From positions 1-64,000 of the forward strand of contig JAAYIY010000040.1 in assembly GCA_012523185.1 (NCBI GenBank): a DNA stretch of 64,000 nt, read 5' to 3'. The stretch comes from Clostridiales bacterium. GTDB lineage: Bacteria; Bacillota; Clostridia; Oscillospirales; Acutalibacteraceae. Positions 8,974 to 53,359 of the stretch are shown piece by piece. The position numbers and the translations under genes were made by a program. The first letter of the stretch is position 1; every line of letters starts with the position of its first letter. A model generated the notes under the pieces. It worked only from the letters and a program-made list of their open reading frames with translations, had not been told where the DNA came from and did not search any database.

Positions 8974-11900
8974 TTATTTAAAATAATTGACTGCCGAACG
9001 GAAGATGCCCATGTCGGAAACACGCTCCGTGTTCTTGTAAAGCCCATCGCCGCATCGTTCGCAATGCCCCATTTTGCCGAACACCCTGCCGTCAGGCGAT
9101 GTAATTCCCTCAATGGCGTAGGCTGAACCGCTTGGGTTAAAGCGGACGTCATTTGAGGCGTTGCCGTCAAAATCGACATACTGAGTGGCTATCTGACCGT
9201 TGTCGGCAAGCTTTAAGATAAGCTCCTCGTCGGCGGCAAAACGCCCCTCCCCGTGTGAAATGGGCACGGTGTAAATTTCGCCCGTGTCTGTGTCTGCCAG
9301 CCATGGAGATTTGTTTGACGCAATCCTTGTGCGGACAAGCTTTGACTGGTGCCGTCCTATCCTGTTGAAAGTCAGGAAAGGCCCGCTTTCGTCGGCGTCT
9401 GTTATTTTGCCGAACGGGACAAGACCAAGCCTTATCAGCGCGTGGAAGCCGTCGCCGATGCCGCAAATCAACCCAAGGCGCTTGTCAAGCAAATCGCTGA
9501 TTGCGTCTTTAATCTGAGCGTCGCGGCAAAAGGCGGCAATAAACTTGCCGCAGCCGTCAGGCTCGCCGCCGCTTGAAATGCCGCCGGGAATAAATAACGC
9601 CTGTGAATTTAAAAGCTTTTTTGCAAAATTATCGACAGACATGGCGACGTCCGACGAAGTGAGGTTGTTAAAGACAAATATTTCCGGTTTTGCACCGGCG
9701 GCTTTAAGCGCCTTTGCTGTGTCGTACTCGCAGTTTGTCCCCGGAAAAACAGGTATGAGAACACGCGGCAAGGCGGCTTTAATTGCGGGGGACGGACGAT
9801 CAAAGGATTTGTATGAAAAGTTTTTAACAGGTGCTTCAAAAGTCGGGATATTGCAGGCAAAAACGCTCTCAAGCTTGTTTTCATATGCTGCAAGCAGCGC
9901 CGAAAGCTCCGCCTCTTGTTCGCCGCGCGTTATTTTGCCTTTGTCTGTCGTTTTACCCGCAGCAATACCGACTTCGCGGTCGTCGCAAAGCTCAATCAGG
10001 AAAGAGCCGTAGTTATAACCGAATATATCATTTAAAGAAAGCTCGTCCGAGAAGTCAAAGCCGATGCCGTTGCCGAAGGACATCTTCATAACCGCCTCCG
10101 CAATGCCGCCGTATGTCGGTGTGTAAACGGAGACTGCGCTGCCGGAGCGAATTAAGCCCGTTACGGTGCTGAAGCACTCAACAAGAGAATCGGCGGTGGG
10201 CAGGCCGTTTTTGTCGTAGTCGGGCTTTATGAGAACAACCTTGCGGTCAGGCGCCTTGAACTCGGGAGAAACAATGCTGCGTGTCGAATCAGTCGTAACC
10301 GCGAAGGAAATCAGAGTGGGCGGCACGTCGATATCCTCAAAACTGCCGCTCATTGAATCTTTGCCGCCGATTGAGGCGATTTGCAGACCTACCTGAGCTT
10401 TAAAAGCGCCAAGCAGCGCGGCGAGCGGCTTGCCCCAACGCTTTCCGTCATGTCCGAGCTTTTCAAAATATTCTTGGAAAGTCAAATAAACATCATCAAA
10501 AGAGGCGCCCGCGGCAATAATCTTTGAAACGGATTCGACGACTGCAAGATAGCCGCCATGATATGGACTTTTTTCTGAAATAAACGGGTTATAGCCCCAA
10601 GCCATCAGCGAGCAGGTGTCGGTGTCTTTTTCTTGAACAGATATTTTGTTGACCATTGCCTGAGCAGGCGTCAGCATATATTTTCCGCCGAAAGGCATCA
10701 AAACGGTGCCGGCGCCGACTGTGGAATCAAAGCGCTCCGAAAGTCCCCTTTTTGAGCAGACATTCAAGTCTGACGCAAGAGAGAAATATAAATCATCAAA
10801 CTCTCCCGATACTTCTTTGTCAAAATCCAGAGGGGCGGCGGGTGTTATGTCGATATGCTTTTCCGCTCCGTTTGAATTCAGAAACTCGCGTGAGATATTT
10901 ACAATCTCTTTGCCGTTCCACTTCATGACAAGCCTTGGCTCGTCGCTGACGACGGCGACGACAGTCGCCTCAAGGTTTTCGCTTTTCGCAAGCTCTTTAA
11001 AACGTCCGACGTCCGACGACGCGACGACGACGGCCATTCTCTCCTGTGATTCGCTTATCGCAAGCTCCGTGCCGTCAAGTCCGCCGTATTTTGTCGGGAC
11101 AGAATTCAAATCAATGACCAACCCGTCGGCAAGCTCTCCTATAGCGACTGAAACACCGCCCGCGCCAAAGTCGTTGCAGCGCTTGATGAGCAGGGAGGCG
11201 TTTTTGTTTCGGAAAAGGCGCTGGAGCTTTCTGCCCTCAGGCGCGTTGCCTTTTTGCACCTCGGCGCCGCAGCTTTCAAGTGATTGGAGAGTGTGGGGCT
11301 TTGAGGAGCCTGCCGCACCTCCGCAGCCGTCGCGCCCTGTCTTGCCGCCAAGAAGTATGACGCAGTCTCCCGCGACGGGAGTTTCGCGGCGAACATTTTC
11401 GGCGGGAGCCGCCGCTATAACCGCGCCGACTTCCATTCTTTTTGCCACATATCCGCCGTGATATATTTCGTCTATCTGTCCCGCTGTGATGCCGACTTGG
11501 TTTGCGTATGAGCTGTAGCCCGCCGCCGCCGTCGTGACAATCGTCCTTTGCGGAAGCTTGCCTTCAAGCGTTTCTGAAAGAGGCTTTGTCGGGTCTGACG
11601 CACCTGTTAAGCGCATTGCGGCATAGACGTAGGAGCGCCCCGAAAGCGGGTCGCGGATAGCGCCACCGATGCAAGTAGCGGCGCCGCCGAACGGCTCTAT
11701 TTCCGTCGGGTGATTGTGAGTCTCGTTTTTAAATAAAAGCAGCCATTTTTGGATTTCGCCGTCAACGTCAACATCAATCTTAACGGTGCAGGCGTTTACT
11801 TCCTCCGACTCGTCAATGCGCGGCAGCTTGCCGTTCTTTTTTAATAGCTTTGCGGTGATTGTGGCTAAATCCATGAGATTAATCGGCTTTTTGCTCCCGA

Positions 11901-12666
11901 TTTCTTTTCTCACGGCAAGATAATCCTCATAAGCCGAGCGGAGAAGCTCGTCCTCAAAAACAACATTGTCAATAGTCGTTAAAAAAGTCGTGTGGCGGCA
12001 ATGGTCTGACCAATAAGCGTCAATCATCCTGATTTCGGTTATGGTGGGGTTGCGCCTTTCGCTTTTAAAGTAGTCCCTGCAAAATGTGATGTCGTCTAAA
12101 TCCATAGCCAAGCCATGTTTCTCGACAAATTCCGACAGACCGTTAAAGTCAGTGTCAATGAAACCGTCAAGGATTTCCATGTCGGCGGGATTTTCAAACT
12201 TGATGTCAAGAGTCGCATATTCGCCGAGCGAAGCCTCACGGCTTTCGACGGGGTTTATGATGTGCTTTTTAATTGCGTCTGTTTCATCGGCAGAGATGTC
12301 GCCGTAAAGCATATAGACCTTTGCGGTGCGCACTGACGGGCGCTCTTGATTTGAGATTGCCTGTATGCATTGCGCGGCGGAATCGGCGCGCTGGTCAAAC
12401 TGACCGGGCAGATATTCCACAGCGAAAACAATACAATCGGATGTGTCGCCGAGCGTGTCACGGCAAATGTCAAGGTCGGGCTTTGAGAAAACTGCTTTTT
12501 TACAATAATCGAACAGTTCACTGTCGATGTTTTCCACGTCATATCGGTTGATGATGCGCAGAGACGAAACGCTTTCTATACGAAGAAATGAGCGGATATC
12601 AGAAGCAAGCGCGCTCGCCTCACTGTCGAACCCTTTTATTTTTTCAACATAAATTCTATAGACCAT
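8974..12666 (-). CDS. purL: Single-chain phosphoribosylformylglycinamidine synthase with a cysteine-less glutaminase domain
   Basis: PurL converts FGAR, ATP and glutamine to FGAM in purine synthesis. The 1230-residue product is the Clostridia-type long form: an N-terminal PurS-like region, two AIRS-type ATP-binding halves (with the HNHPTEIEPFGGAATCIGG motif near residue 318) and, from about residue 985, a class I glutamine amidotransferase domain. That domain keeps the ISHGEGRF histidine block, but the nucleophile elbow, normally GxCNGFQ, reads GIGDGFH. The expected Cys codon at 9454-9456 is GGC (Gly1071), and the nearest Cys is three residues earlier. The start at 12666 is chosen because AAAGGTG lies 8 bases upstream. 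It is the last gene of the pyr-pur operon. Confidence 0.95.
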   Translation of the reverse strand: MVYRIYVEKIKGFDSEASALASDIRSFLRIESVSSLRIINRYDVENIDSELFDYCKKAVFSKPDLDICRDTLGDTSDCIVFAVEYLPGQFDQRADSAAQCIQAISNQERPSVRTAKVYMLYGDISADETDAIKKHIINPVESREASLGEYATLDIKFENPADMEILDGFIDTDFNGLSEFVEKHGLAMDLDDITFCRDYFKSERRNPTITEIRMIDAYWSDHCRHTTFLTTIDNVVFEDELLRSAYEDYLAVRKEIGSKKPINLMDLATITAKLLKKNGKLPRIDESEEVNACTVKIDVDVDGEIQKWLLLFKNETHNHPTEIEPFGGAATCIGGAIRDPLSGRSYVYAAMRLTGASDPTKPLSETLEGKLPQRTIVTTAAAGYSSYANQVGITAGQIDEIYHGGYVAKRMEVGAVIAAAPAENVRRETPVAGDCVILLGGKTGRDGCGGAAGSSKPHTLQSLESCGAEVQKGNAPEGRKLQRLFRNKNASLLIKRCNDFGAGGVSVAIGELADGLVIDLNSVPTKYGGLDGTELAISESQERMAVVVASSDVGRFKELAKSENLEATVVAVVSDEPRLVMKWNGKEIVNISREFLNSNGAEKHIDITPAAPLDFDKEVSGEFDDLYFSLASDLNVCSKRGLSERFDSTVGAGTVLMPFGGKYMLTPAQAMVNKISVQEKDTDTCSLMAWGYNPFISEKSPYHGGYLAVVESVSKIIAAGASFDDVYLTFQEYFEKLGHDGKRWGKPLAALLGAFKAQVGLQIASIGGKDSMSGSFEDIDVPPTLISFAVTTDSTRSIVSPEFKAPDRKVVLIKPDYDKNGLPTADSLVECFSTVTGLIRSGSAVSVYTPTYGGIAEAVMKMSFGNGIGFDFSDELSLNDIFGYNYGSFLIELCDDREVGIAAGKTTDKGKITRGEQEAELSALLAAYENKLESVFACNIPTFEAPVKNFSYKSFDRPSPAIKAALPRVLIPVFPGTNCEYDTAKALKAAGAKPEIFVFNNLTSSDVAMSVDNFAKKLLNSQALFIPGGISSGGEPDGCGKFIAAFCRDAQIKDAISDLLDKRLGLICGIGDGFHALIRLGLVPFGKITDADESGPFLTFNRIGRHQSKLVRTRIASNKSPWLADTDTGEIYTVPISHGEGRFAADEELILKLADNGQIATQYVDFDGNASNDVRFNPSGSAYAIEGITSPDGRVFGKMGHCERCGDGLYKNTERVSDMGIFRSAVNYFK

Positions 12667-12788
12667 ATGCAATACACCTTTCTTTTTTTAAAGAGATACA
12701 GCGGATTTTTGGCTTGTGCCGCGCGTTGAATTTGGCGTTAAAGCACGGCGTTTTCAGACTTTGAACCGCGGCGGGGCGGCGATTGAGA

Positions 12789-14069
12789 TTAACTGCTGTT
12801 AGTATAAGCCTCCAATGCCTTTTTTCCTATATCTTTTCTGTAATAGGCGTTGCCGAAGCTTATTTTTGAAACGGCTTGATAAGACCTTTTGACAGCTTCA
12901 TCAAGCGTGTCGGCGACAGATGTGACGCCAAGAACCCTGCCGCCTGACGAAAGAAGGATATTGTCAGCTTTTTTCACACCGGCGGCAAAAACCTCAGCGC
13001 CGAGAGAGCTTTCATCAGGTATTTTAACAGTGAATCCTGTTTCAAATTTTTGCGGATAACCCTTTGAGGCCATTATGACGCAGCACGCTGATTTTTCGCT
13101 GAATTTAACGTCTGCGCAGTCGAGAGTGCCTTCCGAAACGCTAAGCATTATATCAAGGAGGTCGCTTTCAAGGAGCGGCAGCACAACCTGCGCTTCGGGA
13201 TCGCCGAAACGGCAGTTATATTCGATTACCTTCGGGCCGTCAGACGTGATTATCAGTCCGAAGTAAAGGCATCCCTTGAAAGGTCTGCCCTCTGCGGACA
13301 TCGCTTTTATTGTCGGCAGGAAAATTTTTTCCATACACTCCGCGGCGACAGCGTCTGTGTAAAACGGATTAGGCGCCGCCGCGCCCATGCCGCCCGTATT
13401 AAGCCCCTCGTCGTTGTCCAGCGCCCGCTTGTGATCCATTGAGGATATCATCGGGATGATGGTCGTGCCGTCCGTGAAAGAAAGGACAGACACCTCCGGA
13501 CCTGTCAAAAACTCCTCTATTATGATTTTTGTGCCGGAGTCGCCGAATATTTTCCCCTCCATCATTGATATGACGGCTGCTGCTGCTGTTTCTCTTGTTT
13601 CGGCAATAATAACTCCTTTGCCAAGGGCAAGGCCGTCAGCTTTGATGACTGTCGGCAGGGGAGCAGTGCCGATATATTCAAGCGCGGCGTTAACGTCTGT
13701 AAAGACATTGTATTCGGCAGTCGGTATGTTATATTTTTTCATGAGGTTTTTTGCGAAGATTTTACTTCCCTCAATAACAGCGGCGTTTGCCCGCGGTCCA
13801 AAGCAGGGGATGCCCTTTGCGTTCAGCGCATCGACAGCTCCCAGCACGAGCGGGTCGTCAGGTGTTACGACGGCAAAATCTATGTTGTTGGCGGCGGCGA
13901 AATCAGCTATGCCGCCGATATCCTTTGCGCCGATATCGACGCACAAAGCATCGGCCGCTATGCCGCCGTTGCCGGGGAGGGCATATATTTTGTCTGTCTT
14001 TGGGCTTTGCTTTAGTTTTTTGATTATGGCGTGCTCTCTGCCGCCGCCGCCGATTACAATAATATTCAT
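12789..14069 (-). CDS. purD: Phosphoribosylamine-glycine ligase
   Basis: This enzyme joins phosphoribosylamine and glycine with ATP to give GAR, the second step of purine synthesis. The 426-residue ATP-grasp protein begins with the GGGGREHAI nucleotide fold and shows the KADGLALGKGV loop near residue 147, the GGMGAAAPNPFYT segment and the YNCRFGDPEAQ metal-binding motif near residue 290. The ATG is preceded by an AGGGGGA ribosome binding site. It lies 113 bases after the AICAR transformylase gene and 122 bases before purL, the two largest gaps of the purine block apart from the MITE. No hairpin or promoter was recognised in either gap. Confidence 0.97.
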   Translation of the reverse strand: MNIIVIGGGGREHAIIKKLKQSPKTDKIYALPGNGGIAADALCVDIGAKDIGGIADFAAANNIDFAVVTPDDPLVLGAVDALNAKGIPCFGPRANAAVIEGSKIFAKNLMKKYNIPTAEYNVFTDVNAALEYIGTAPLPTVIKADGLALGKGVIIAETRETAAAAVISMMEGKIFGDSGTKIIIEEFLTGPEVSVLSFTDGTTIIPMISSMDHKRALDNDEGLNTGGMGAAAPNPFYTDAVAAECMEKIFLPTIKAMSAEGRPFKGCLYFGLIITSDGPKVIEYNCRFGDPEAQVVLPLLESDLLDIMLSVSEGTLDCADVKFSEKSACCVIMASKGYPQKFETGFTVKIPDESSLGAEVFAAGVKKADNILLSSGGRVLGVTSVADTLDEAVKRSYQAVSKISFGNAYYRKDIGKKALEAYTNSS

Positions 14070-14182
14070 GTCAGATATCCCCCTTGTCGAAGCCGCAATG
14101 GTAAAAGATTATAAACCTTTCTCAACAAATCCATAAGCGCGCGGGTCTGCGCCTGCGCCGTTCAAAATGAAATGCCGAATAA

Positions 14183-15367
14183 TCAGTGGTGAAAAAGCCT
14201 CATGCCTGTGAACGCCATTGTGATTCCGTATTTATTGCAGGTTTCGATGACATTGTCGTCGCGAATCGAGCCGCCGGGCTGAGCGATATATGAAACGCCG
14301 CTGCGGCGCGCCCGCTCGATATTATCTCCGAACGGGAAAAACGCGTCGCTGCCAAGAGACACGCCTGTTATGGTCGAAAGGTAATTCTTTTGCTCGTCTC
14401 TTGTGAACGGTTCGGGGCGCGTTGAAAAATATTGCTCCCACACGGCGTCTCCCAGCACGTCTTCAAAGTTTTCGGAAAGATAAACATCAATCACATTGTC
14501 CCTGTCCTGCCTGCCGAGTGTTTCGGAGAAGGGGAGTGAAAGCACCTTGTCATGCTGGCGCAAATGCCATATATCAGCCTTGTTTCCCGCAAGCCGCGTG
14601 CAGTGTATCCTTGACTGCTGCCCCGCGCCGACGCCTATCGCCTGACCGCCGAACGCGTAGCAGACAGAATTTGACTGTGTGTATTTCAATGTAATTAAAG
14701 ATATGACAAGGTCGCGCACGGCGTCTTTGGGCAGGCTCTTTGTGTCGGTGACAATATTTTTAAGGAGCTGTTCGTTTATCTCAAAGTTGTTCCTTCCCTG
14801 TGAAAAGGTGATTCCGAAAACCTGCTTTGTTTCGACGGGTCGGGGGATGTAATCGGAATCTATTTTGATGATATTATAGCCGCCTTTTCTTTTGGATTTG
14901 AGTATTTCAAGCGCTTCTCCGTCAAAATCGGGGGCTATTACGCCGTCTGAAACTTCGCGCTTAATCAAAAGGGCTGTCGTCGCGTCGCACTTGTCGCTCA
15001 AAGCTATCCAATCACCGTATGACGACATCCTGTCAGTCCCGCGTGCGCGCGCGTAAGCACAGGCAAGAGGGGATGCGTCAAGGCCGGCAATGTCGTCCGC
15101 AAAACAAGCTCTTTTAAGCTTGTCGTCAAGAGGAATTCCGACAGCGGCGGAAGTCGGGCTGACATGTTTAAAAGAAGCGGCGCATGGGAGCTTTACGGCG
15201 TCTTTAATTTCTTTTACAAGCTGCCAGCCGTTAAGGGCGTCAAGGAAGTTAATATATCCCGGTCTGCCCGACAATATTTCAACGGGCAAGTCGGAGCTGT
15301 CCTCCATGTAAATGCCTGCGGGCGTTTGGTTTGGGTTGCAGCCGTATTTTAACTCGTATTCTTTCAT
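14183..15367 (-). CDS. Stand-alone AICAR transformylase (PurH C-terminal domain only)
   Basis: This enzyme transfers a formyl group from 10-formyl-tetrahydrofolate to AICAR to give FAICAR. The 394-residue protein matches only the AICARFT domain of PurH: the early KYGCNPNQTPA motif, the catalytic FKHVSPTSAA (Lys-His) motif near residue 66, YTQSNSVCYA and GAGQQSRIHCTRLAG. It has no inosinicase (MGS-like) domain. The last step is supplied by the separate PurO-type protein encoded 5 bases upstream. The ATG at 15367 is chosen because AAGGGTG is well spaced from it. An upstream in-frame GTG would overlap that ribosome binding site. Confidence 0.93.
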   Translation of the reverse strand: MKEYELKYGCNPNQTPAGIYMEDSSDLPVEILSGRPGYINFLDALNGWQLVKEIKDAVKLPCAASFKHVSPTSAAVGIPLDDKLKRACFADDIAGLDASPLACAYARARGTDRMSSYGDWIALSDKCDATTALLIKREVSDGVIAPDFDGEALEILKSKRKGGYNIIKIDSDYIPRPVETKQVFGITFSQGRNNFEINEQLLKNIVTDTKSLPKDAVRDLVISLITLKYTQSNSVCYAFGGQAIGVGAGQQSRIHCTRLAGNKADIWHLRQHDKVLSLPFSETLGRQDRDNVIDVYLSENFEDVLGDAVWEQYFSTRPEPFTRDEQKNYLSTITGVSLGSDAFFPFGDNIERARRSGVSYIAQPGGSIRDDNVIETCNKYGITMAFTGMRLFHH

Positions 15368-15372
15368 TTTCT

Positions 15373-16101
15373 TCACCCTTTTATATTATTCCTGTTAATT
15401 ATCCTGTTTTCCTCCCGCCCCGTCGCGAGATTTATGTAACGCACATAAAGTGAAACCCTGTTGTCCTCATTTAAGTTTTCCCACAGCTCTGAAGTGAATT
15501 TATCAATCTCATTATGTATGGCGACGCGCTCCGGCTCTCCCGTAAAAGAGGGGATTGGATTGCCGTCATGGTTATAGGTGTGTATAAAGTGACCGAGACC
15601 GGGCAGAGCGGAATATGAAAATGTGCAGCGGCTGCACGACGTGCCGTTTTCATCGGCACTTTTTAAAATGCTGAGCTTGTATGTTATGTCCGCCTTTTCA
15701 AAGCTGACAAGACCGCTTATCCGCGGCGTAAAATTCGGCTCGTCAGGCTCAAAGCTCCGTGTTTCAAGCGCTTGCTCAAAGCTCTTGCCCTTTGATAAAA
15801 AGTCGTGGATTGTGTCGGTCTGGTCGCCGTTTGTGACGATAAGGCAGCTGCCGAACTTTTTAATCGGGGAGTATATTATAAGCGAGGGATCCGAAACCTT
15901 GGAAATGTCGAACGGCTGTATCATCACTCCGCCTTCGTTTTCAACAAAAACGCGGTTGCGGCTGTTTTCGCTTCTGCCCATAATAAAATACGCGACGACG
16001 GCGTTTTTGCCGTCGGGGCTTTTTCCGATGACTATACCTCTGCCGACATATGTGTTGTCACGAATCAAGCTGCCCAGGTTGTTGATTTTATAGACACTCA
16101 T
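15373..16101 (-). CDS. purO: PurO-like IMP cyclohydrolase
   Basis: This 242-residue protein resembles the IMP cyclohydrolase family first described in archaea (PurO), which closes FAICAR to IMP. Visible features are the early NTYVGRGIVIG segment, AYFIMGRSENSRNR near residue 40, the NGDQTDTI stretch and a C-terminal ATGREENRI tail. This fits its position beside a transformylase lacking the cyclohydrolase domain. Its start overlaps the purN stop by 14 bases, so translation is probably coupled. The assignment rests on recalled family features plus context. The alternative is an uncharacterised homologue. Confidence 0.85.
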   Translation of the reverse strand: MSVYKINNLGSLIRDNTYVGRGIVIGKSPDGKNAVVAYFIMGRSENSRNRVFVENEGGVMIQPFDISKVSDPSLIIYSPIKKFGSCLIVTNGDQTDTIHDFLSKGKSFEQALETRSFEPDEPNFTPRISGLVSFEKADITYKLSILKSADENGTSCSRCTFSYSALPGLGHFIHTYNHDGNPIPSFTGEPERVAIHNEIDKFTSELWENLNEDNRVSLYVRYINLATGREENRIINRNNIKG

Positions 16102-16720
16102 GATTTTTCCCTCGCTTCTTTTTCTTTTCTTTTGATATCATTTCACACGCCTTCGGCAGAAGCTTCCACTCTGCCTGCTCCATTACACGGCGTTGGAGCG
16201 TCTCAGGCGTGTCTGTGCTTTTGACACAAACACTTTTTTGAAGAATTATCTCTCCGCCGTCCGGTATCTCGTTTACATAGTGGACTGTGGCGCCCGTGAC
16301 TTTGACACCGTACTTAAGCGCCTCCTCGTGGACGCGCAAACCGTAAAAGCCCTTGCCGCAAAATGAGGGTATCAGGGAAGGGTGGACATTGATTATGGAG
16401 CGTGGGTATTTTGATGTGAACTCGGCGCTTAATATGCGCATGAACCCGGCAAGAACAATAAGCTCAATTCCATGCATTGAAAGTATGCGGCAAAGCTCGC
16501 CTTCAAACGCTTCGCGGCTTTTAAATCGGTCGCCGGAAATCACAGCCGTCTTAATTCCCGCGTCATGCGCTCTTGTAAGCGCATAGGCGCGCGGATTGTT
16601 TGAAACCACAAGCGATATGACGCCGGATTTAATGACGCCGCTTTTCTGCGCGTCAATAAGCGCCTGAAGATTTGTGCCGTTGCCCGACGCAACTACGGCT
16701 ATTTGCGTTTTGTTCAGCAT
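16088..16720 (-). CDS. purN: Phosphoribosylglycinamide formyltransferase
   Basis: PurN uses 10-formyl-tetrahydrofolate to formylate GAR. The 210-residue protein has the family N-terminus (VVASGNGTNLQALI, residues 9-22), the catalytic INVHPSLIPSFCGKG block near residue 105 with Asn and His, and the TVHYVNEIPDGGEIILQ loop carrying the catalytic Asp. The start overlaps the purM stop by 7 bases, and the end overlaps the purO-like gene by 14 bases. It is part of the compact purM-purN-purO block. Confidence 0.96.
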   Translation of the reverse strand: MLNKTQIAVVASGNGTNLQALIDAQKSGVIKSGVISLVVSNNPRAYALTRAHDAGIKTAVISGDRFKSREAFEGELCRILSMHGIELIVLAGFMRILSAEFTSKYPRSIINVHPSLIPSFCGKGFYGLRVHEEALKYGVKVTGATVHYVNEIPDGGEIILQKSVCVKSTDTPETLQRRVMEQAEWKLLPKACEMISKEKKKKRGKNHECL

Positions 16721-17748
16721 ATAACGACTCCCTTGCCGCGGGCGGAAACTTCTCCGATAATGTAGGCGTCCTCTCCGTTTGCGCGAAGAATTTCGAGAGC
16801 TTTATCGGCGTCGTCCCTTGATGTGACGACGCTCATTCCGACGCCCATGTTAAAGGTGTTGAACATGTCCCGCTCGTCTATTTTTCCCGTTTTTGCAATG
16901 AGGTCGAAAATAGGCGGCACGCGTATGGCGGACTTTTCGATTTTGGCGCCAAAGCTTTCGGGAAGGCTGCGCGGAATATTTTCATAAAATCCGCCGCCCG
17001 TTATGTGTGAGACAGCCTTGACAGTCAGCGCGTCAAACAGCGCCGTCATCGGCTTGACATAAATTCTTGTCGGCTCAAGGAGTGTTTCGCCGATGGTGCA
17101 GCCAAGCTCTCCGACGTAAAGACTTAGATCCGCGCTTTCAATGTTGAACACGCGGCGGATAAGCGAAAAGCCGTTTGAGTGCGCGCCCGAAGAGGGGAGA
17201 GCGATAATGACGTCGCCGCTCTTGACTGACGAGTTGTCAAGAATCTTGCTTTTGTCGGCAACACCCACGGAAAACCCGGCAATATCATACTCATCCTCTG
17301 AATAAAACCCCGGCATCTCCGCTGTCTCGCCGCCGATGAGCGCCGCGCCCGACTGAACGCACCCGTCCGCCACGCCTGAAACTATGGCGGCTATCTTTTC
17401 GGGGAATATTTTGCCCGTCGCAATGTAGTCAAGAAAAAACAAAGGCTTTGCGCCGCTGCAAATAATGTCGTTAACGCACATCGCGACACAATCTATTCCT
17501 ATTGTGTCGTGCTTGTCCATGAGAAAAGCAAGCTTCAGCTTTGTGCCCACGCCGTCGGTGCCGCTGACTAAAACAGGGCGCTCGATACCTGTGAGGTCAA
17601 GCTCAAAAAGACCGCCGAAACCACCGACAGAGGAGACTGCGCCGCTTGTGACAGTTTTAGCAATATGCCGCTTCATCAGCTCGACAGCCTTATATCCTGC
17701 CGTGATGTCGACTCCGGCGTCTTTGTAGCTTTTGCTGAAGCTTTCCAT
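16714..17748 (-). CDS. purM: Phosphoribosylformylglycinamidine cyclo-ligase (AIR synthetase)
   Basis: PurM closes FGAM to AIR with ATP. The 344-residue length and the motifs SYKDAGVDI, SGTDGVGTKLKLA (near residue 63), DCVAMCVNDI, FFLDYIATGK, GGETAEMPGFY and SHITGGGFYENIPR are characteristic. It follows purF after 27 bases and overlaps purN by 7 bases. The start is the ATG with AAGGGG upstream. Confidence 0.98.
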   Translation of the reverse strand: MESFSKSYKDAGVDITAGYKAVELMKRHIAKTVTSGAVSSVGGFGGLFELDLTGIERPVLVSGTDGVGTKLKLAFLMDKHDTIGIDCVAMCVNDIICSGAKPLFFLDYIATGKIFPEKIAAIVSGVADGCVQSGAALIGGETAEMPGFYSEDEYDIAGFSVGVADKSKILDNSSVKSGDVIIALPSSGAHSNGFSLIRRVFNIESADLSLYVGELGCTIGETLLEPTRIYVKPMTALFDALTVKAVSHITGGGFYENIPRSLPESFGAKIEKSAIRVPPIFDLIAKTGKIDERDMFNTFNMGVGMSVVTSRDDADKALEILRANGEDAYIIGEVSARGKGVVIC

Positions 17749-17775
17749 ATGTATAACAACCCCTTAAGATTATGA

Positions 17776-19215
17776 TTATTTATCCGTGTCTTTTTCGGAT
17801 ATCTTTTTTTTATATTTGTTCTTTTTCTTTAGATTTGGTATTTCCGTAGGGTAGCAGCCGTTAAAGCACGCACGGCAAAAGCCGTTTTCCGGCCCGCGGT
17901 CCGTGAGCCTGTTGGCGCTTTCGATACTGAGGTAACCAAGGGAATCGACGTCAAGTATTTTTGCTATTTCCTCAATGGAGTTGTTGGCGGCAATAAGCGA
18001 TTCGGAGGAGCTTATATCAGTTCCGTAATAACAGGCGTTTATAAATGGCGGAGCGGATGAACGCATATGCACCTCGACAGCGCCGGCTTCGCGCAGCAGG
18101 CGCACTATCAGCGCGCACGTTGTGCCCCTGACGATTGAATCGTCGACAAGAACAACTCTTTTGCCGTTGACCGTATCGGAAACGGGGTTAAGCTTGATTT
18201 TTACTTTGTCCTCCCTTATTGATTGAGCGGGGGAAATGAAAGTCCTGCCGATGTATTTGTTTTTAATAAAGCCTAAACCGTATGGTATGCCGGATTTTGC
18301 AGCGTAACCCATTGCGGCGTCAATGCCCGAATCGGGAACACCGATTACAACATCTGCCGGGACGGGATGCTCGTCCGCAAGGAATTCACCTGCTCGGCGC
18401 CGCGCCGTGTGGACTGACACGCCGTCGATTATTGAATCAGGACGGGCAAAGTAAATGTATTCAAAAACACAAAGGGAGGGAGGAGCTTTGTGGCAGTGAT
18501 CAGTAATTGAGCGAACTCCGTTTTTGTCGAAAATCATTATTTCTCCCGGCTTAATATCTCGTATAAGCACAGCGCCGACAGAGTCGAGCGCGCAGCTTTC
18601 AGAGGCGACGACATAGCTTCCGTCGTCAGTGATGCCGTAGCAAAGCGGACGAAAACCCCTTTCGTCGCGCAGCGCAATCATCTTTGACGGCGACATGGCG
18701 ACAATGGAGTAAGAACCCTTTATTTTGTGCATGGCGCGGTTTATCGCCTCCTCGATAGAGGGAGCTTTAAGGCGTTCGCGTGTGATGAGAAATGAGATTA
18801 TTTCCGCATCGCTGTCGGTGTGGAAAATCGCTCCATCCATCTCAAGCTCCTCGCGAAGCTCAAAATAGTTTATAAGAGAGCCATTGTGTGAAAGAGCCAT
18901 CCTGCCCTTGATGTGGTTTACGACGATAGGCTGTGCGTTTGCCCTGCCGACTGTTTCGGCGGTGCTGTATCGGACATGACCGACAGCCATGTTTCCCTCA
19001 CCGAGAGAAGCCATCACTTCGGGCGTGAAAACATCGTCCACAAGCCCGGAATCCTTATAAGTGTTAAAAACACCGTCGTCGTTTACGCAGATGCCGCAGC
19101 TTTCCTGACCGCGGTGCTGCAAAGCGAACAGACCGAAATAGACAGAGGCGGCGACATTGGCTTTTGAGTTTGCGAAAATGCCGAAAACGCCGCATTCCTC
19201 ACGGACATTGCTCAT
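17776..19215 (-). CDS. purF: Amidophosphoribosyltransferase, iron-sulfur type
   Basis: PurF makes phosphoribosylamine from PRPP and glutamine, the committed step of purine synthesis. The N-terminal sequence MSNVREE precedes Cys8 (CGVFGIF), which becomes the N-terminal nucleophile after propeptide removal. Further motifs are GHVRYSTAE, SHNGSL, the PRPP-loop VVLVDDSIVRGTT near residue 345, and C-terminal cysteines (FCRACFNGCYPTEIP). The propeptide and the cysteines are the marks of the [4Fe-4S], oxygen-sensitive Bacillus-type enzyme. A lysine-rich C-terminal tail extends beyond the family core. It lies directly downstream of the palindromic element that separates it from purE. Confidence 0.98.
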   Translation of the reverse strand: MSNVREECGVFGIFANSKANVAASVYFGLFALQHRGQESCGICVNDDGVFNTYKDSGLVDDVFTPEVMASLGEGNMAVGHVRYSTAETVGRANAQPIVVNHIKGRMALSHNGSLINYFELREELEMDGAIFHTDSDAEIISFLITRERLKAPSIEEAINRAMHKIKGSYSIVAMSPSKMIALRDERGFRPLCYGITDDGSYVVASESCALDSVGAVLIRDIKPGEIMIFDKNGVRSITDHCHKAPPSLCVFEYIYFARPDSIIDGVSVHTARRRAGEFLADEHPVPADVVIGVPDSGIDAAMGYAAKSGIPYGLGFIKNKYIGRTFISPAQSIREDKVKIKLNPVSDTVNGKRVVLVDDSIVRGTTCALIVRLLREAGAVEVHMRSSAPPFINACYYGTDISSSESLIAANNSIEEIAKILDVDSLGYLSIESANRLTDRGPENGFCRACFNGCYPTEIPNLKKKNKYKKKISEKDTDK

Positions 19216-19233
19216 TTAATCATTCCCCTAAAC

Positions 19234-19413
19234 TTAAGGCAGCACCGCGCAATGAGCGGCTGAAGCCTTTGTTGTATGCTTGCTTGCATCTTTTCTGTCA
19301 TATCGCCCAAAAATGCTCGGCAATACACAAAGTATTGCCTGCGCTTTTTAGACAATCTGACGAAAAATCTGACGGCGCAATCGCACAACAATCATTGTGC
19401 GGTGTTGCCTTAA
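19234..19413. mobile_element. 180-bp palindromic MITE between purE and purF
   Basis: Both ends carry a 21-base terminal inverted repeat, beginning TTAAGGCAGCACCGCGCA at 19234 and ending GGTGTTGCCTTAA at 19413, matching at 19 of 21 positions when one is reverse complemented. The interior is also an imperfect palindrome whose apex is a perfect 8-bp stem, GGCAATAC (19319-19326) and GTATTGCC (19332-19339), around ACAAA. It holds no gene. Length, terminal repeats and lack of coding capacity fit a miniature inverted-repeat transposable element. It sits inside the pyr-pur operon, 18 bases upstream of the purF start codon and 12 bases after the purE stop. Confidence 0.8.
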
Positions 19414-19425
19414 AACAAAATGTGT

Positions 19426-19920
19426 TTAACTCAAGAAAGAAGCTGAAATCGCGGTATCCTTTTCAAGAACCTTTTCCGCCGCAAGCTTGCGTGAACAATC
19501 AAGCTTTGCGGCAAGCTCCGAATCTGAAACGGCAAGAATCTGCACGGCTAAAAATGCCGCGTTCGCGGCGCCGTTTATGGCGACTGTCGCTACCGGTATC
19601 CCCGGAGGCATCATCACTGTCGAAAGAAGCGCGTCCATCCCTTCGAGCGCGGACGACTTAACAGGGATGCCTATCACAGGCAAAGTGGTGTTTGCCGCAA
19701 TCGCCCCTGCCAGGTGAGCGGCCATTCCGGCGGCCGCGATTATTACACCAAAGCCGTTTTTTCTCGCGTTTGTTGAAAAATCTTTTGCCTCGTCGGGAGT
19801 GCGGTGCGCCGAATAGACATGAACCTCAAACGGAACATTAAAATCCTTTAAAACCACAGCGGCTTTTTCGACGATCGGCAGGTCGCTGTCGCTGCCCATT
19901 ATGATTGCTGCTTTTTTCAT
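19426..19920 (-). CDS. purE: N5-carboxyaminoimidazole ribonucleotide mutase (class I PurE)
   Basis: PurE converts N5-CAIR to CAIR. The 164-residue protein has the GSDSDLPI motif at residues 9-16, the SAHRTPD catalytic histidine block near residue 42, [11 protein letters not shown] near 64, and the PVIGIPV and [11 protein letters not shown] segments, all class I features. PurK, its usual partner, is not in the window. It begins 21 bases after pyrI with a GGAGGG ribosome binding site, which joins the pyrimidine and purine genes into one transcription unit. Confidence 0.97.
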
Positions 19921-19941
19921 TTTGCCCTCCGTAATGACTGC

Positions 19942-20364
19942 TTATTTATCCTTTGCCCTTGATTCGCAATAGACACACCTGTAAATCCTGTTTTCCCTGT
20001 CTGTCAGCCGAAAAATCTGCGGCAGCTCCTGCTCCGTCGATGTGATGCAGCGCGGATTTTTGCAGGCGATTACATTGCGCACCTCGTCAGGCAGGGCAAG
20101 CTTCCTTTTTTCAAACAGCTTGCCGTCCTTAATGATGTTGACAGTGATATTTGGGTCGATGTATCCGAGCACGTCAAGGTCAAGATCAAACATATCGGCG
20201 ACTTTTATGATGTCCTTTTTTCCCATCTTGCGGCTTGAAACATTTTTGATGATAGCGACGGAACATTCAAGTCTCTCAAGATGCAGGATGCGGTAAATTT
20301 CCATGCACATCCCGGCGCTGATGTGATCAAGCACAATCCCGTTTGTGATTTCATCTATAATCAT
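19942..20364 (-). CDS. pyrI: Aspartate carbamoyltransferase regulatory subunit
   Basis: PyrI is the nucleotide-binding regulatory chain that makes PyrB allosteric. The 140-residue protein starts with the ITNGIVLDHI motif and ends with a zinc site of four cysteines (CKNPRC near residue 107 and CVYC near 131). The effector-binding N-terminal domain includes VSSRKMGKKDIIKV. It begins 3 bases after pyrB with a GGAGGTGG ribosome binding site. Its presence argues for enteric/clostridial-type feedback regulation by nucleotides rather than the PyrI-less Bacillus enzyme. Confidence 0.97.
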   Translation of the reverse strand: MIIDEITNGIVLDHISAGMCMEIYRILHLERLECSVAIIKNVSSRKMGKKDIIKVADMFDLDLDVLGYIDPNITVNIIKDGKLFEKRKLALPDEVRNVIACKNPRCITSTEQELPQIFRLTDRENRIYRCVYCESRAKDK

Positions 20365-20367
20365 TTG

Positions 20368-21282
20368 TCAAACCACCTCCAAAAGCTTCAGTATGAGCGC
20401 CATTCGTATATATTTGCCATAGCTGACCTGCTTAAAGTAGCAAGCTCTCGGATCGTCGTCAACCGCGACTGATATTTCGTTAACCCTCGGCAGGGGATGC
20501 ATAACGCACATATCTTTCTTCGCGTTTTTGAGCTTGTCCGGAGTGAGGATGTAGCTGTCCTTCAGCCGCACATAATCCGCCTCGTTAAAAAAACGTTCGC
20601 GCTGCACTCTTGTCATATAAAGTATGTCAAGAGTCGGCATGACGGCGCCGATGTCTTTTGTTTCGATATATTCAAGCCCGATTTTGTCAAGGACATTTTG
20701 TTTCATATATTCAGGTATCTGAAGCTCGTCCGGTGAGATGAGAACAAATTTTATGCCGTCATACCTTGACATGGCGGAAATAAGCGAGTGAACTGTCCGA
20801 CCGAATTTTAAGTCGCCGCAAAACCCGACTGTCATGTTAGAAAGCCTGCCTTTTTCACGGCTTATCGTTAAAAGATCGGTCAAGGTTTGAGTCGGGTGGT
20901 TGTGACCGCCGTCGCCTGCGTTGATGACGGGAGAAATGGATTTCATTGACGCCACAAGCGGCGCCCCTTCTTTCGGGTGGCGCATGACAATGATGTCCGC
21001 ATAGCAGCTGACAGCGCGAACCGTGTCGGAGACGCTTTCGCCTTTCGCAACGGAACTGCCGCTCGCCTCCGAGAAGCCGATTACATTGCCGCCCAGCTCA
21101 TACATTGCGGCTTCAAAGCTGAGGCGTGTCCTCGTAGACGGCTCAAAGAATAAGGTGGCAAGCTTTTTGCCGCGGCACTTTTCGGAGTAAGCCCCCGGGT
21201 TGTCTATGATGTCGACGGCGATGGAAATAAGCTCGTTGATTTCCTCTGTGCTTAGCTCAAGAATATCTATAAGACTTCTCAT
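20368..21282 (-). CDS. pyrB: Aspartate carbamoyltransferase catalytic subunit
   Basis: PyrB condenses carbamoyl phosphate and aspartate. The 304-residue length and the motifs [15 protein letters not shown] (residues 45-59), [26 protein letters not shown] (near residue 128), [22 protein letters not shown] and [10 protein letters not shown] are diagnostic. It lies between pyrE (4 bases upstream) and pyrI, and the three are presumably translated from one message. Confidence 0.99.
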
Positions 21283-21286
21283 GACA

Positions 21287-21928
21287 TCAACCCTTTCGTG
21301 GTTTTATCCAGCTTTCGTCTGATGGATTGTCCCTGAACGAAATTAATCTTTTAATATCATCAGCGGCGATATACCCCTCGTCGGCGGCAACCTGTGCCAC
21401 AGTGTCAAAGCTTGTAAGGCTCACATTTTTGACGCCTGCCGCGTCAAGCCTGTCAAGTCCCTTTTTCATGCCGTATGTAAAAATGCTCACGATTCCGAGG
21501 ACGTCGGCGCCCGCTTCCCTCAAAACCTCGACGACCTCAATCACGCTGCCGCCCGTTGAAATCAAATCCTCAACAACAACTGTCTTCTGACCCTTTTTAA
21601 GCTTGCCCTCGATTTGGTTTTGTCTGCCGTGGATTTTTGCGCCGGATCGGACATATCCCATCGGCAAGCTTAAAATATGTGCTGTAATAGCTGCGTGCGC
21701 AATTCCCGCAGTGCTTGTTCCCATCAGCACCTCGCAATCGGGATAGTGGGCTTTGACCGCGGCGGCAAGCGCGTTTTCAATGTCGAGGCGGACGGAGGGC
21801 GCTGTGAGTGTCAAGCGATTGTCGCAGTAAACGGGGCTTTTGATGCCGCTTGCCCATGTGAACGGCTCGTCCGGCCTGAAAAACACAGCTCCTATTGAAA
21901 GCAGGCTTTTGGCTATGAGCTTGTCCAT
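21287..21928 (-). CDS. pyrE: Orotate phosphoribosyltransferase
   Basis: PyrE makes orotidine 5'-phosphate from orotate and PRPP. The 213-residue protein shows the substrate segment [16 protein letters not shown] near residue 24, [10 protein letters not shown] and the PRPP-binding [25 protein letters not shown] near residue 119. A strong GGAAGGGAG ribosome binding site precedes the ATG. It lies 22 bases after pyrF. Confidence 0.97.
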
Positions 21929-21950
21929 TTATTATCTCCCTTCCTTAAAG

Positions 21951-22649
21951 TCATTCGGTAAATTCTTTCAAACATCTTCTGTATGCCGCGACAGGGTTGT
22001 CGGCTCTTGTGACGGGTCTGCCCACGACTATATAGTCGGAGCCTATTTCGCGCGCCTGTTTCGGAGTCGTAATCCTTACTTGATCGCCTTTTTCGCCGCC
22101 GTCAAAACGTATGCCCGGCGTAACAGTCAGAAAGCTGTTTCCGCAGCGCTCTTTAACCTTGCCCGCTTCGAGAGGCGAGCAGACGACGCCGTCAAGCCCC
22201 GCGGTCTTGGCATTTTCGGCATAACGCATCACAACCTCGTCAAGCGGCAAATCTATGAGTATATCGTTCTTCATCCGCTCCTCGCTTGTTGACGTAAGCT
22301 GAGTTACGGCTATCAGCAAAGGACGTGTGCCGTCGGGGCGCTCCAAGCCCTTTGCCGCCGCCTCCATCATGGCGGCGGTGCCGGAGGCGTGAAGGTTTAT
22401 CATGTCGGCTCCCAGCGACGACAGCGCCGACATTGCCCTCATCACGGTGTTTGGTATGTCGTGGAGCTTTAAGTCAAGAAAAATTTTGTGACCGCGCCGC
22501 TTTATCTCGCGGACAATTTCCGGACCCTCCGCGTAAAAAAGCTCCATCCCGACCTTGAGATACGGCTTTTCTTCCTTAAACAAATCAAGAAAAGCGTATG
22601 TCTCGTCCTTCGTGCTGAAATCACAGGCAATTATTACGTCTTTGCCCAT
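21951..22649 (-). CDS. pyrF: Orotidine 5'-phosphate decarboxylase
   Basis: PyrF decarboxylates OMP to UMP. The 232-residue protein carries the IIACDF start strand, the catalytic FLDLKLHDIPNTV motif (Asp-Lys-x-x-Asp, near residue 57), MINLHASG, TPGIR and the VVGRPVT phosphate loop. The ATG at 22649 overlaps the pyrD stop in the TGATG arrangement and has AGGAGGTG upstream, so it is favoured over the in-frame TTG one codon earlier. Confidence 0.97.
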   Translation of the reverse strand: MGKDVIIACDFSTKDETYAFLDLFKEEKPYLKVGMELFYAEGPEIVREIKRRGHKIFLDLKLHDIPNTVMRAMSALSSLGADMINLHASGTAAMMEAAAKGLERPDGTRPLLIAVTQLTSTSEERMKNDILIDLPLDEVVMRYAENAKTAGLDGVVCSPLEAGKVKERCGNSFLTVTPGIRFDGGEKGDQVRITTPKQAREIGSDYIVVGRPVTRADNPVAAYRRCLKEFTE

Positions 22650-23560
22650 CAATGCGCACCTCCTGTTATGTCAGAAATATTTTCAATCCCGTACTTTTGC
22701 ATCGTGTCGGGAAGACTGTCTATTATGGTCTTGCACGCATAAGGCTCGACAAGATTGGCGGCGCCGACCTGGACAGCCGCCGCTCCGGCAAGCATCATCT
22801 CTATGACATCCTCGGCGGAAGCGACGCCGCCCATGCCGATAATCGGTATTTTAACAGCTTCATAAACCTGATAAACCATCCGCAGCGCAACGGGTAAAAT
22901 CGCCCTGCCTGAAAAACCGCCTGTTTTGTTGTGTATGACAGGCTTTTTAGTCTTTAAATCTATCCTCATGCCAAGCAGTGTGTTTATGAGGCTCAAGCCG
23001 TCGGCGCCCGCTTCCTCACACGCGCGGGCGATTGACACAATGTCTGTTACATTTGGCGAAAGCTTAATGTAGACGGGCTTTGAGGTCACCGCCTTGACGG
23101 CTTTTGTGACCGCCGCCGCCGATTCGGGTGATGTGCCGAAGCTCATTCCGCCGTCGCGGACATTTGGGCAGCTCACATTTACCTCGATGATTCCGACACA
23201 TTCCTCTTTATCTATCTTTTCGCAGCAAAAGACATATTCCTCGACAGAAAAACCGCTTATATTTGCTATTATCGGCTTTTTAAAGTGCCGTCGCAGTCTT
23301 GGCAGCTCATCGGAAATCACCTTGTCGATGCCGGGATTTTGAAGCCCGACGGAATTTATCATGCCTTGAGTGCATTCGGCTATTCTGGGAGTGGGGTTGC
23401 CGAAACGCGCCTCTTTTGTGGTGCCTTTTATTGAAATTGAGCCGAGAATGCTGATGTCATAAATCTCGGCAAACTCATAGCCGAACCCGAATGTGCCGCT
23501 GGCGGGTATAACAGGATTTGAAAGTGTGATTCCGCTGAGGACGACACTTGTGTTCACCAT
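22649..23560 (-). CDS. pyrD: Dihydroorotate dehydrogenase B, catalytic subunit
   Basis: This FMN enzyme of pyrimidine synthesis transfers electrons through PyrK to NAD. From the ATG at 23560 the product is 303 residues, starting with VNTSVVLSGITLSNPVIPASG. It shows NSVGLQNPGI, the catalytic-cysteine region NVSCPNVRDGG and the FMN-binding IIGMGGVASAEDVIEMMLAGA. An upstream extension would run through pyrK. The AAGGAGGAG ribosome binding site and the ATGGTGA overlap with the pyrK stop fix this start. Confidence 0.98.
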   Translation of the reverse strand: MVNTSVVLSGITLSNPVIPASGTFGFGYEFAEIYDISILGSISIKGTTKEARFGNPTPRIAECTQGMINSVGLQNPGIDKVISDELPRLRRHFKKPIIANISGFSVEEYVFCCEKIDKEECVGIIEVNVSCPNVRDGGMSFGTSPESAAAVTKAVKAVTSKPVYIKLSPNVTDIVSIARACEEAGADGLSLINTLLGMRIDLKTKKPVIHNKTGGFSGRAILPVALRMVYQVYEAVKIPIIGMGGVASAEDVIEMMLAGAAAVQVGAANLVEPYACKTIIDSLPDTMQKYGIENISDITGGAH

Positions 23561-24291
23561 ATTATCTCCTCCTTCGCAAGGACGGGGCCGTCCTTGCAAA
23601 TGCGCTTGCTGCCGTATTTTGTTTTGCAGGAGCAGCCCATGCAAGCACCGAAGCCGCAGCCCATCCGCTCCTCAAAGCTCAGCTCGCCGCTTGACGCGGA
23701 AATGTCGTATATTGCTTTGAGCATCGGCTCGGGGCCGCAGGCGTAAAAGAAAGTGTAGCGCAAATCAAGGCTCTCTACCAAGTCGGACACAAAGCCCTTA
23801 AAACCGAAGCTCCCGTCGACCGTGGACGCGTGTGTCGCTACGCCAAGCCTTGCGAACTCCTTTGTGTAAAAAACTTCGTCGGCGGTGTTGAAGCCGAGGG
23901 CGGCGACAGGGCTTTTGCCCTCCGCCAAGAGCCTTTTGGCAAGCATATAAAGCGGAGGGATGCCGACGCCTCCGCCGACAAGGAGAGGGGCGGTGCCGCT
24001 TTTATCAGTGTCAAAGCCGTTGCCGAGCCCTGATAAAACATCAAGATCGGCGCCCGCGGCAAGGGAGGACATATATTCAGTGCCTTTGCCGACGACTTTG
24101 TATACGATTGTGATGCTGCCTCCCTCACAGTCGCAGACAGATATGGGACGGCGCAGATAAAAGCCGTCAAGGGCAATGTTGATAAACTGACCGGGCGCTG
24201 AAATGGCGGAGGTGTCGCCTGACAGCTTCATTTGAAAAATGCCTTTGGCGACACGCCTGTTTTCGGTTATTGCAAACAATCCCTTTTTCAA
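23554..24291 (-). CDS. pyrK: Dihydroorotate dehydrogenase electron transfer subunit
   Basis: PyrK passes electrons from PyrD to NAD+ through FAD and a [2Fe-2S] cluster. The 245-residue protein has the FAD-binding RRPISVCD motif near residue 50, the nucleotide-binding GGGVGIPPLY and the C-terminal cysteine cluster CGFGACMGCSCKT. The TTG at 24291 is preferred to the GTG at 24300, because the only Shine-Dalgarno (GGAG at 24300-24303) overlaps the GTG and is 8 bases from the TTG. It is the first structural gene of the operon. Confidence 0.95.
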   Translation of the reverse strand: MKKGLFAITENRRVAKGIFQMKLSGDTSAISAPGQFINIALDGFYLRRPISVCDCEGGSITIVYKVVGKGTEYMSSLAAGADLDVLSGLGNGFDTDKSGTAPLLVGGGVGIPPLYMLAKRLLAEGKSPVAALGFNTADEVFYTKEFARLGVATHASTVDGSFGFKGFVSDLVESLDLRYTFFYACGPEPMLKAIYDISASSGELSFEERMGCGFGACMGCSCKTKYGSKRICKDGPVLAKEEIIW

Positions 24292-24296
24292 AGACT

Positions 24297-24506
24297 TCAC
24301 TCCAAAACAACTGCCTGGAATCGGCGGGTAAAAAATAAAAAAACGCCCGTAAAAGATATACTTCTACAAAGCGGTCGAACAATTAATTTTGACGGGCAGC
24401 AAGCCGGTGAAAGCAAGGCGGGCAGAAAAAGATAAAGCGTGTCCGCAGATAAGTTTACACCGTGAAAAGCGAAAAACAGGAAAGGCGGACGAAACGCGTA
24501 TGTCAC
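24297..24506 (-). CDS. Candidate pyr leader peptide spanning the attenuator
   Basis: A 69-codon frame runs from a GTG at 24506, through the candidate attenuator, to a TGA at 24297-24299, six bases before the pyrK start. It has 11 phenylalanines and many leucines, reflecting pyrimidine-rich, U-rich stretches in the leader RNA. GAGG lies only 4 bases from the GTG, so initiation is uncertain. The layout recalls the E. coli pyrBI leader, where translation of a U-rich region decides whether RNA polymerase passes the terminator when UTP is scarce. It may instead be a chance frame. Confidence 0.35.
   Translation of the reverse strand: MTYAFRPPFLFFAFHGVNLSADTLYLFLPALLSPACCPSKLIVRPLCRSISFTGVFLFFTRRFQAVVLE
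24328..24397 (-). terminator. Candidate attenuator upstream of pyrK
   Basis: On the minus strand GCCCGTCAAAA (24387-24397) can pair with TTTTACGGGC (24345-24354) with one bulged C. A run of T broken by one A follows (about 24328-24343). The loop is long, 32 bases. Because it lies after the promoter and before pyrK, it would act as a transcription attenuator for the whole pyr-pur operon. No PyrR-type anti-antiterminator sequence was recognised. Confidence 0.55.
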
Positions 24507-24556
24507 CCAACCTCAACCTAATTCCACCTTTCAAAAGAACAATTAACGACACATAA

Positions 24557-24586
24557 AATATAACATAAAATGAGGTCTTTAGTCAA
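24557..24586 (-). promoter_or_regulatory. Promoter of the pyr-pur operon
   Basis: Minus-strand TTGACT (24581-24586) and TATATT (24557-24562) are 18 bases apart. The leader that would follow is about 250 bases long before pyrK, long enough for the attenuator and leader frame. A hairpin with GAAAGGTGG pairing to CCGCCTTTC forms early in this leader. Confidence 0.6.
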
Positions 24587-25091: not shown

Positions 25092-25120
25092 TTGACAATT
25101 TTTTTGTTACGCACTATACT
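25092..25120 (+). promoter_or_regulatory. Promoter of the cobalamin-riboswitch ECF operon
   Basis: TTGACA (25092-25097) and TATACT (25115-25120) are 17 bases apart, immediately upstream of the riboswitch, which gives a natural transcription start near 25127. Confidence 0.8.
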
Positions 25121-25123
25121 TAA

Positions 25124-25345
25124 AACATTGCGTGGTGTGCAAAGCGCGCCTAACAGGGAATCCGGTGAAAAACCGGAGCAGCTCACAAACTACTGTAAAA
25201 GCTACGAAACGTCAGCGCGGTTTGACCGCGCAAACAATCACTGGAGCCGAGGCTCCGGGAAGACAGACGGAATAGGCTTGAAGCTTTTAGCCAGGAGACC
25301 TGCCATGCAAAGGGTACAAGCCTTTCGGTGAGGGGAGCTTGGGAC
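25124..25345 (+). ncRNA. Cobalamin riboswitch (B12 element)
   Basis: The RNA contains the conserved AACAGGGAA and GGTGAAAAACCGG core segments, CTACTGT, GGGAAG, and the B12 box AGCCAGGAGACCTGCC (25289-25304). This class binds adenosyl- or methylcobalamin and lowers expression of cobalamin synthesis or transport genes. A Rho-independent terminator follows at 25422-25455, upstream of the ECF transporter genes, so control is probably by premature termination when B12 is abundant. Confidence 0.92.
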
Positions 25346-53074: not shown

Positions 53075-53324
53075 CAATTTAAAAACACTTGAAATGCTAT
53101 GACGGAATTATGCCTTTTTCAGCGCTTTTCAGAGAGTCGGCGGACGGTGAAAGCCGATACTGCGCGAACAAGGCAGTCTCACTCCCGAGCAGGATTTCGG
53201 AAGGCCGTTTGGCTGCGTAAGGAATCACGGTTTGTCCCGTTACCATGACATCGGACTTTTCAGTCCTGCAAAGAGACCGTTTACAGACGGTAATTTGGGT
53301 GGTACCGCGGTATTAAGTTATCGT
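53075..53324 (+). ncRNA. T-box leader (tRNA-sensing riboswitch)
   Basis: The leader has the Stem I AGAGAG bulge (53131-53136), the GGCGGACGGTGAAAGCC distal element and the invariant T-box GGGTGGTACCGCGG (53298-53311). Pairing GCCTT (53112) with AAGGC (53201-53205) and GCT (53124) with AGC (53188) leaves the candidate specifier loop strand AGGATTTCGG at 53191-53200. It contains UUC/UUU (Phe) and AUU (Ile), but no leucine codon. Uncharged tRNA would favour the antiterminator and expression of the downstream genes. The class is certain; the amino acid is not. Confidence 0.92.
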
Positions 53325-53359
53325 CCCTGAAGTGTTGGCTTTGGGGATTTATTTTTTTC
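53325..53359 (+). terminator. Regulated terminator of the T-box leader
   Basis: TCCCTGAAG (53325-53333) pairs with CTTTGGGGA (53340-53348), nine pairs including two G-U, followed by a T run broken by one A. The TCCC on its 5' side is also needed for the T-box antiterminator, so the two structures exclude each other. Confidence 0.85.

Follow-up and report, generated by a model that had tools for sequence, protein, structure and literature searches.

A putative leader-peptide attenuator, similar in anatomy to that of Escherichia coli pyrBI, upstream of a joined pyr-pur operon in Clostridia

The window, i.e. the whole stretch of 64,000 nt that was analysed (positions 1 to 64,000 of contig JAAYIY010000040.1), carries on its minus strand a long cluster of pyr and pur genes. 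The first gene is pyrK (23554 to 24300), for which TTG 24291 is the likely start codon and GTG 24300 the start in the list of open reading frames. Its best matches were models of the electron transfer subunit of dihydroorotate dehydrogenase (234.9 bits, under the curated cut-offs). It is followed by pyrD, pyrF, pyrE, pyrB, pyrI, purE, purF, purM, purN, a gene for a PurO-like IMP cyclohydrolase, the AICAR formyltransferase gene and purD (12789 to 23569), which were assigned with NCBIfam models and have the same order in two related genomes, G002 and G006. A probable purL of 1232 amino acids, read from the translation of its open reading frame, lies at the end of the cluster (8974 to 12672). We infer that a single transcript runs on through the pur genes. 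Between purE and purF (about 19233-19415) the window contains a MITE-like dispersed repeat, about 180 bp long, whose ends are inverted (AAGGCAACACCGC...GCGGTGYTGCCTTA). The genome has about 40 copies of it, and several of these lie at contig ends.

Upstream of pyrK the minus strand showed a promoter of the sigma-70 type (24557 to 24586), composed of the -35 hexamer TTGACT (24586-24581), a spacer of 18 nt and the TG-extended -10 hexamer TATATT (24562-24557), with 10 of 12 consensus matches. Transcription would start near 24550 and proceed through a leader of about 250 nt before it reaches pyrK. The first element of the leader is a start box (GAAAGGTGGAATTAGGTTGA, 24513 to 24532), in which a Shine-Dalgarno match, AGGTG (24529-24525), is separated by 8 nt from a TTG start codon. 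This codon opens a frame of 50 codons, TTG to TAG (24364 to 24516; MRLGDIRVSSAFPVFRFSRCKLICGHALSFSARLAFTGLLPVKINCSTAL), with 38% T and 35% purine. Three T runs within it (T5 at 24476-24472, T4 at 24468-24465 and T5 at 24430-24426, together spanning 24426 to 24476) are candidate UTP-sensitive pause sites; three runs of at least four T in the 153 nt of the frame compare with a density of 6.2 per kb for the genes of the operon. The frame runs into an intrinsic terminator, the putative attenuator (24330 to 24373), made up of a stem (24373-24344) and a U tract (24343-24330), and its stop codon TAG (24366-24364) sits within the 5' arm of the hairpin. The predicted stability of the terminator was -10.3 kcal/mol, or -12.9 kcal/mol in a larger form. 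The U-rich stretch between promoter and pyrK and the hairpin with its T run had both been noticed in the initial annotation of the locus.

Leaders of this kind were found in three genomes of one genus, all of them draft assemblies: that of the window (G000), G002 (locus L003) and G006 (locus L002, JAILLJ010000122.1, Clostridiales bacterium RUI225). The TTGACT hexamer, the spacing of 18 and the position of the -10 element are identical in the other two promoters, and both leaders have a counterpart of the frame and the same arrangement at the terminator. In all three, exactly 8 nt separate the end of a 5-nt Shine-Dalgarno match from the start codon (TTG, TTG and ATG in G000, G002 and G006). This codon opens a frame of 50, 40 and 41 codons, respectively, and the stop of each frame falls within the 5' arm of the terminator. 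The frames end in ACC GCT TTG TAG, GCC GCT TTT TAG and GCC GCA TTG TAA, in other words in (T/A)A(L/F)-stop. G000 and G002 have the start box GAAAGGTGGAATTNNGTTGA in common. With up to one mismatch allowed, the window contained the only match to this box in a sample of 394 genomes from the order (a sample without G002), which argues that the leaders share ancestry. From start to stop the three leaders have diverged in sequence and in length, still remaining open in frame, and the resulting peptides are dissimilar and could not be aligned. No codon was enriched in all three, there was no run of one amino acid, and none stood out. What the frames do share is their composition. They contain 36-38% T and 35-42% purine, with several U runs in each, whereas windows taken from genes in these genomes have means of 19-24% T and 52-54% purine.

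How much of this could be due to chance was estimated by shuffling. For the window leader, 26% of dinucleotide shuffles produced at least one frame with its end in the terminator arm, and 6% produced one with a Shine-Dalgarno match. For each leader taken singly, a frame led by a Shine-Dalgarno match and ending in the hairpin occurred in 5-12% of shuffles. Any one leader by itself is thus weak evidence and within reach of chance. Ten terminators located upstream of genes in about 337 kb of the window genome included two other cases of a frame ending in the hairpin, one of them in a T-box, and these are probably accidental. It is the relatives, not the window alone, that carry the case. In shuffles, the openness of all three frames (0.029) multiplied by the agreement of their lengths modulo 3 (1/9) gave about 0.003, and the product of the three tests for frames with a Shine-Dalgarno match was about 3e-4; because they overlap, these two values are not to be combined by multiplication. 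The whole case comprises three genomes.

PyrR is the standard regulator of pyr genes in Bacillota. Neither a PyrR-binding sequence nor a pyrR gene had been visible to the initial annotation, and our searches agreed with it. The PyrR RNA family (RF00515) had no match in the leader or elsewhere in the window genome, which is about 95% complete, and the best match in a pyrR search of that genome reached 33.9 bits, where the cut-off is 138; the matching gene probably encodes a hypoxanthine phosphoribosyltransferase. PyrR control of the window operon was therefore rejected, the gene and the binding site both being absent. Within the genus, pyrR was present in six of 11 genomes, and four of them gave RF00515 matches, all under the gathering score. 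Among the genomes with pyrR is G006, so that the new leader does not always go with loss of the gene. In many relatives a PyrR-type leader was recognised upstream of pyrC by reading the sequences.

The explanation that we favour, by a modest preponderance, is that the leader is a translation-dependent transcription attenuator which works like that of E. coli pyrBI. RNA polymerase would start near 24550 and synthesise a U-rich leader, and the 50-codon frame would be translated by ribosomes starting at TTG 24516. At low UTP, the polymerase would hesitate at the U runs, where it presumably pauses, and the leading ribosome would catch up with it. As the ribosome approached the hairpin, whose 5' arm contains the stop codon, the terminator could not fold, and the pyr-pur operon would be transcribed. 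When UTP is plentiful, the polymerase would outrun the ribosome, the hairpin would form and transcription would end near 24330. The parts of this scheme for which the sequences speak are the homology of the three leaders, the open frame that each of them has and that stops in the terminator arm, the richness in U and the missing PyrR leader. Translation of the frame, coupling of ribosome and polymerase and UTP as the signal are what we infer from them, and sensing of UTP by the leader appears plausible. Termination in E. coli falls from about 90% to less than 10% when a stop codon lies a few bases ahead of the terminator, and in pyrBI it is the pausing of the polymerase that couples polymerase and ribosome (PMC4824070). 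That pyrimidine and purine genes are together under pyrBI-style control had been suggested in the initial annotation. It stands as the best-supported explanation, and pyr and pur genes are joined downstream in all three genomes that possess the leader, but the frame, the start and the stop position then proposed are probably wrong.

The resemblance to pyrBI lies in anatomy. Both systems have a short U-rich leader frame and an intrinsic terminator that overlaps it just before the first pyr gene, and the peptide encoded by E. coli pyrL is likewise devoid of regulatory codons. As a yardstick, pyrL contains 31% T and 41.5% purine, and pyrBI 22% T. However, pyrL starts with ATG, crosses its terminator and stops just before pyrB, whereas the window leader stops in the 5' arm. 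The window operon also begins with pyrK and continues with pur genes, and no sequence relation to pyrBI is claimed. A terminator before the first pyr gene, a short frame overlapping it and U-rich tracts upstream were all found in the window; a frame that continues beyond the terminator was not, since the conserved frame ends in the hairpin. Because such a through-terminator frame is missing and the response to UTP is a putative one, we do not claim membership in the pyrBI type. By its anatomy the locus would be a pyrBI-like leader-peptide attenuator, working like pyrBI in an unexpected lineage. The PyrR attenuators of Bacillota also act on transcription of pyr genes, but they contain a PyrR-binding anti-antiterminator where the window leader has an open frame. 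A short upstream frame tied to an intrinsic terminator is also a feature of bmrB of B. subtilis (PMC4191407) and of histidine leaders of bacilli (PMC2965389). Their signals are antibiotics or histidine, and in bmrB alternative hairpins are involved, whereas the window leader shows no conserved rival hairpin and has its stop in the terminator.

It might be argued that the open frame is incidental and that an RNA-binding protein, or an RNA binding a ligand, selects between terminator and antiterminator independently of translation. A terminator and a leader of about 180 nt are present, and control of the PyrR type is ancestral in the relatives. However, the leader matched no Rfam family and was not more stable than its shuffles (z -0.89). 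Between start box and terminator the leaders show no conservation of sequence, and a weak consensus structure mostly paired the promoter with the start box, whereas the frame is open in three out of three leaders. We consider this explanation unlikely. A riboswitch or T-box as the leader was rejected on the lack of an Rfam match, of added fold stability and of a convincing shared structure.

Alternatively, the ribosome might mediate attenuation in response to an amino acid or to the overall rate of translation instead of UTP, as the histidine and bmrB leaders demonstrate that leader-peptide attenuators exist in Bacillota. Here the unrelated peptides without a prominent amino acid argue against amino acid sensing, which was dismissed for want of a codon signature. 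There is also no conserved rival hairpin and, as the stop lies in the terminator, stalling further upstream would not obviously release an antiterminator. The chances of this reading seem low.

Equally low are those of a different leader peptide, the one put forward in the initial annotation: a frame of 69 codons, 11 of them for Phe, that begins at GTG 24506 and ends at 24297. The frame exists and is open, and by crossing the terminator to a point just before pyrK it comes nearer to the architecture of pyrL. Its stop codon (TGA 24299-24297) precedes the likely pyrK start TTG 24291 by five bases, not the six originally counted, and its richness in Phe follows from the U-rich composition. However, its Shine-Dalgarno match is 4 nt long as opposed to 5 nt at TTG 24516. 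The comparison of related leaders which had been recommended as a check showed that the terminator is kept but that this frame is not; it is the other frame that is conserved. Neither G002 nor G006 had a frame of leader length with a usable ribosome-binding site that passes through the terminator. The through-frames of G002 lack a Shine-Dalgarno sequence, the sole exception being 14 codons long, and G006 has no comparable frame. The frame from GTG 24506 was therefore rejected, and the conserved one from TTG 24516 to TAG 24364 is probably the leader peptide.

That the terminator is merely constitutive and partial, in a leader without regulation, is very improbable. It would not explain why the arrangement of start box, frame and in-frame stop within the hairpin is conserved. 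Attenuation by Rho at the pyrimidine-rich leader, conceivable from work on purine bias and Rho in B. subtilis in which pyrimidine-rich RNA is a Rho target (PMC13323073), is largely refuted and can hardly be entertained, since none of the 11 genus genomes has rho over the cut-off. The search itself works, because one of 60 sampled relatives, G043, scored 568 bits and was the only one over the cut-off. Rho appears to have been widely lost in this order.

Returning to the attenuator modelled on pyrBI, one point counted against it is the behaviour of B. subtilis, which also belongs to the Bacillota and has runaway transcription (PMC7858274). A race between ribosome and polymerase looks unlikely there for this reason. 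In the window genome the spacing of terminators was mixed, so that coupling is an assumption here. If the mechanism holds, leading ribosomes of these bacteria can keep pace with RNA polymerase, and the locus would offer a natural test of transcription-translation coupling in Clostridia without Rho. A pyrBI-like leader in Clostridia would also mean that one attenuation mechanism has replaced another at the same pathway, and would tie purine and pyrimidine supply into one switch. No report of such a leader in Clostridia was found in the literature searched, which mostly did not extend to subscription journals. More tentatively, and with doubts outweighing confidence, we propose that a nucleotide sensor based on coupling arose in this Rho-less lineage independently of pyrBI, took the place of the PyrR leader and adjusts the synthesis of pyrimidines and purines jointly through the race of polymerase and ribosome.

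The gene order of relatives bears on how the leader was acquired. pyrK leads its operon in only three of the surveyed genomes, namely G000, G002 and G006. At about 110 other loci it forms part of a larger operon, in most cases one headed by pyrC and often one with a PyrR leader, and in most relatives it follows carB or pyrC, with pyrC first. No further leader of this type was found in the upstream regions of pyrK in the genus, at 28 more loci of the family, at 80 more loci or in 36 upstream regions of pyrC (two loci were cut by contig ends). The best explanation is that the leader was gained as this sub-lineage reorganised its operon. In G000, G001, G002 and G006 (loci L115-L118) pyrC is located directly behind a gene whose sequence reads as that of a penicillin-binding protein, and it has no leader. 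The pyrC of these four genomes belongs to a divergent second type that shares about 40% identity with the pyrC of the operons. In the assembly of G001, pyrK and pyrB had no match. The pyrC leaders at L086, L092 and L093 contain a hairpin without a clear canonical PyrR motif and may be PyrR leaders that have degenerated, or attenuators of another kind. Elsewhere in the window, a cobalamin riboswitch (25116-25321) and a T-box leader (53090-53331) were detected on the plus strand, both above their Rfam gathering scores.
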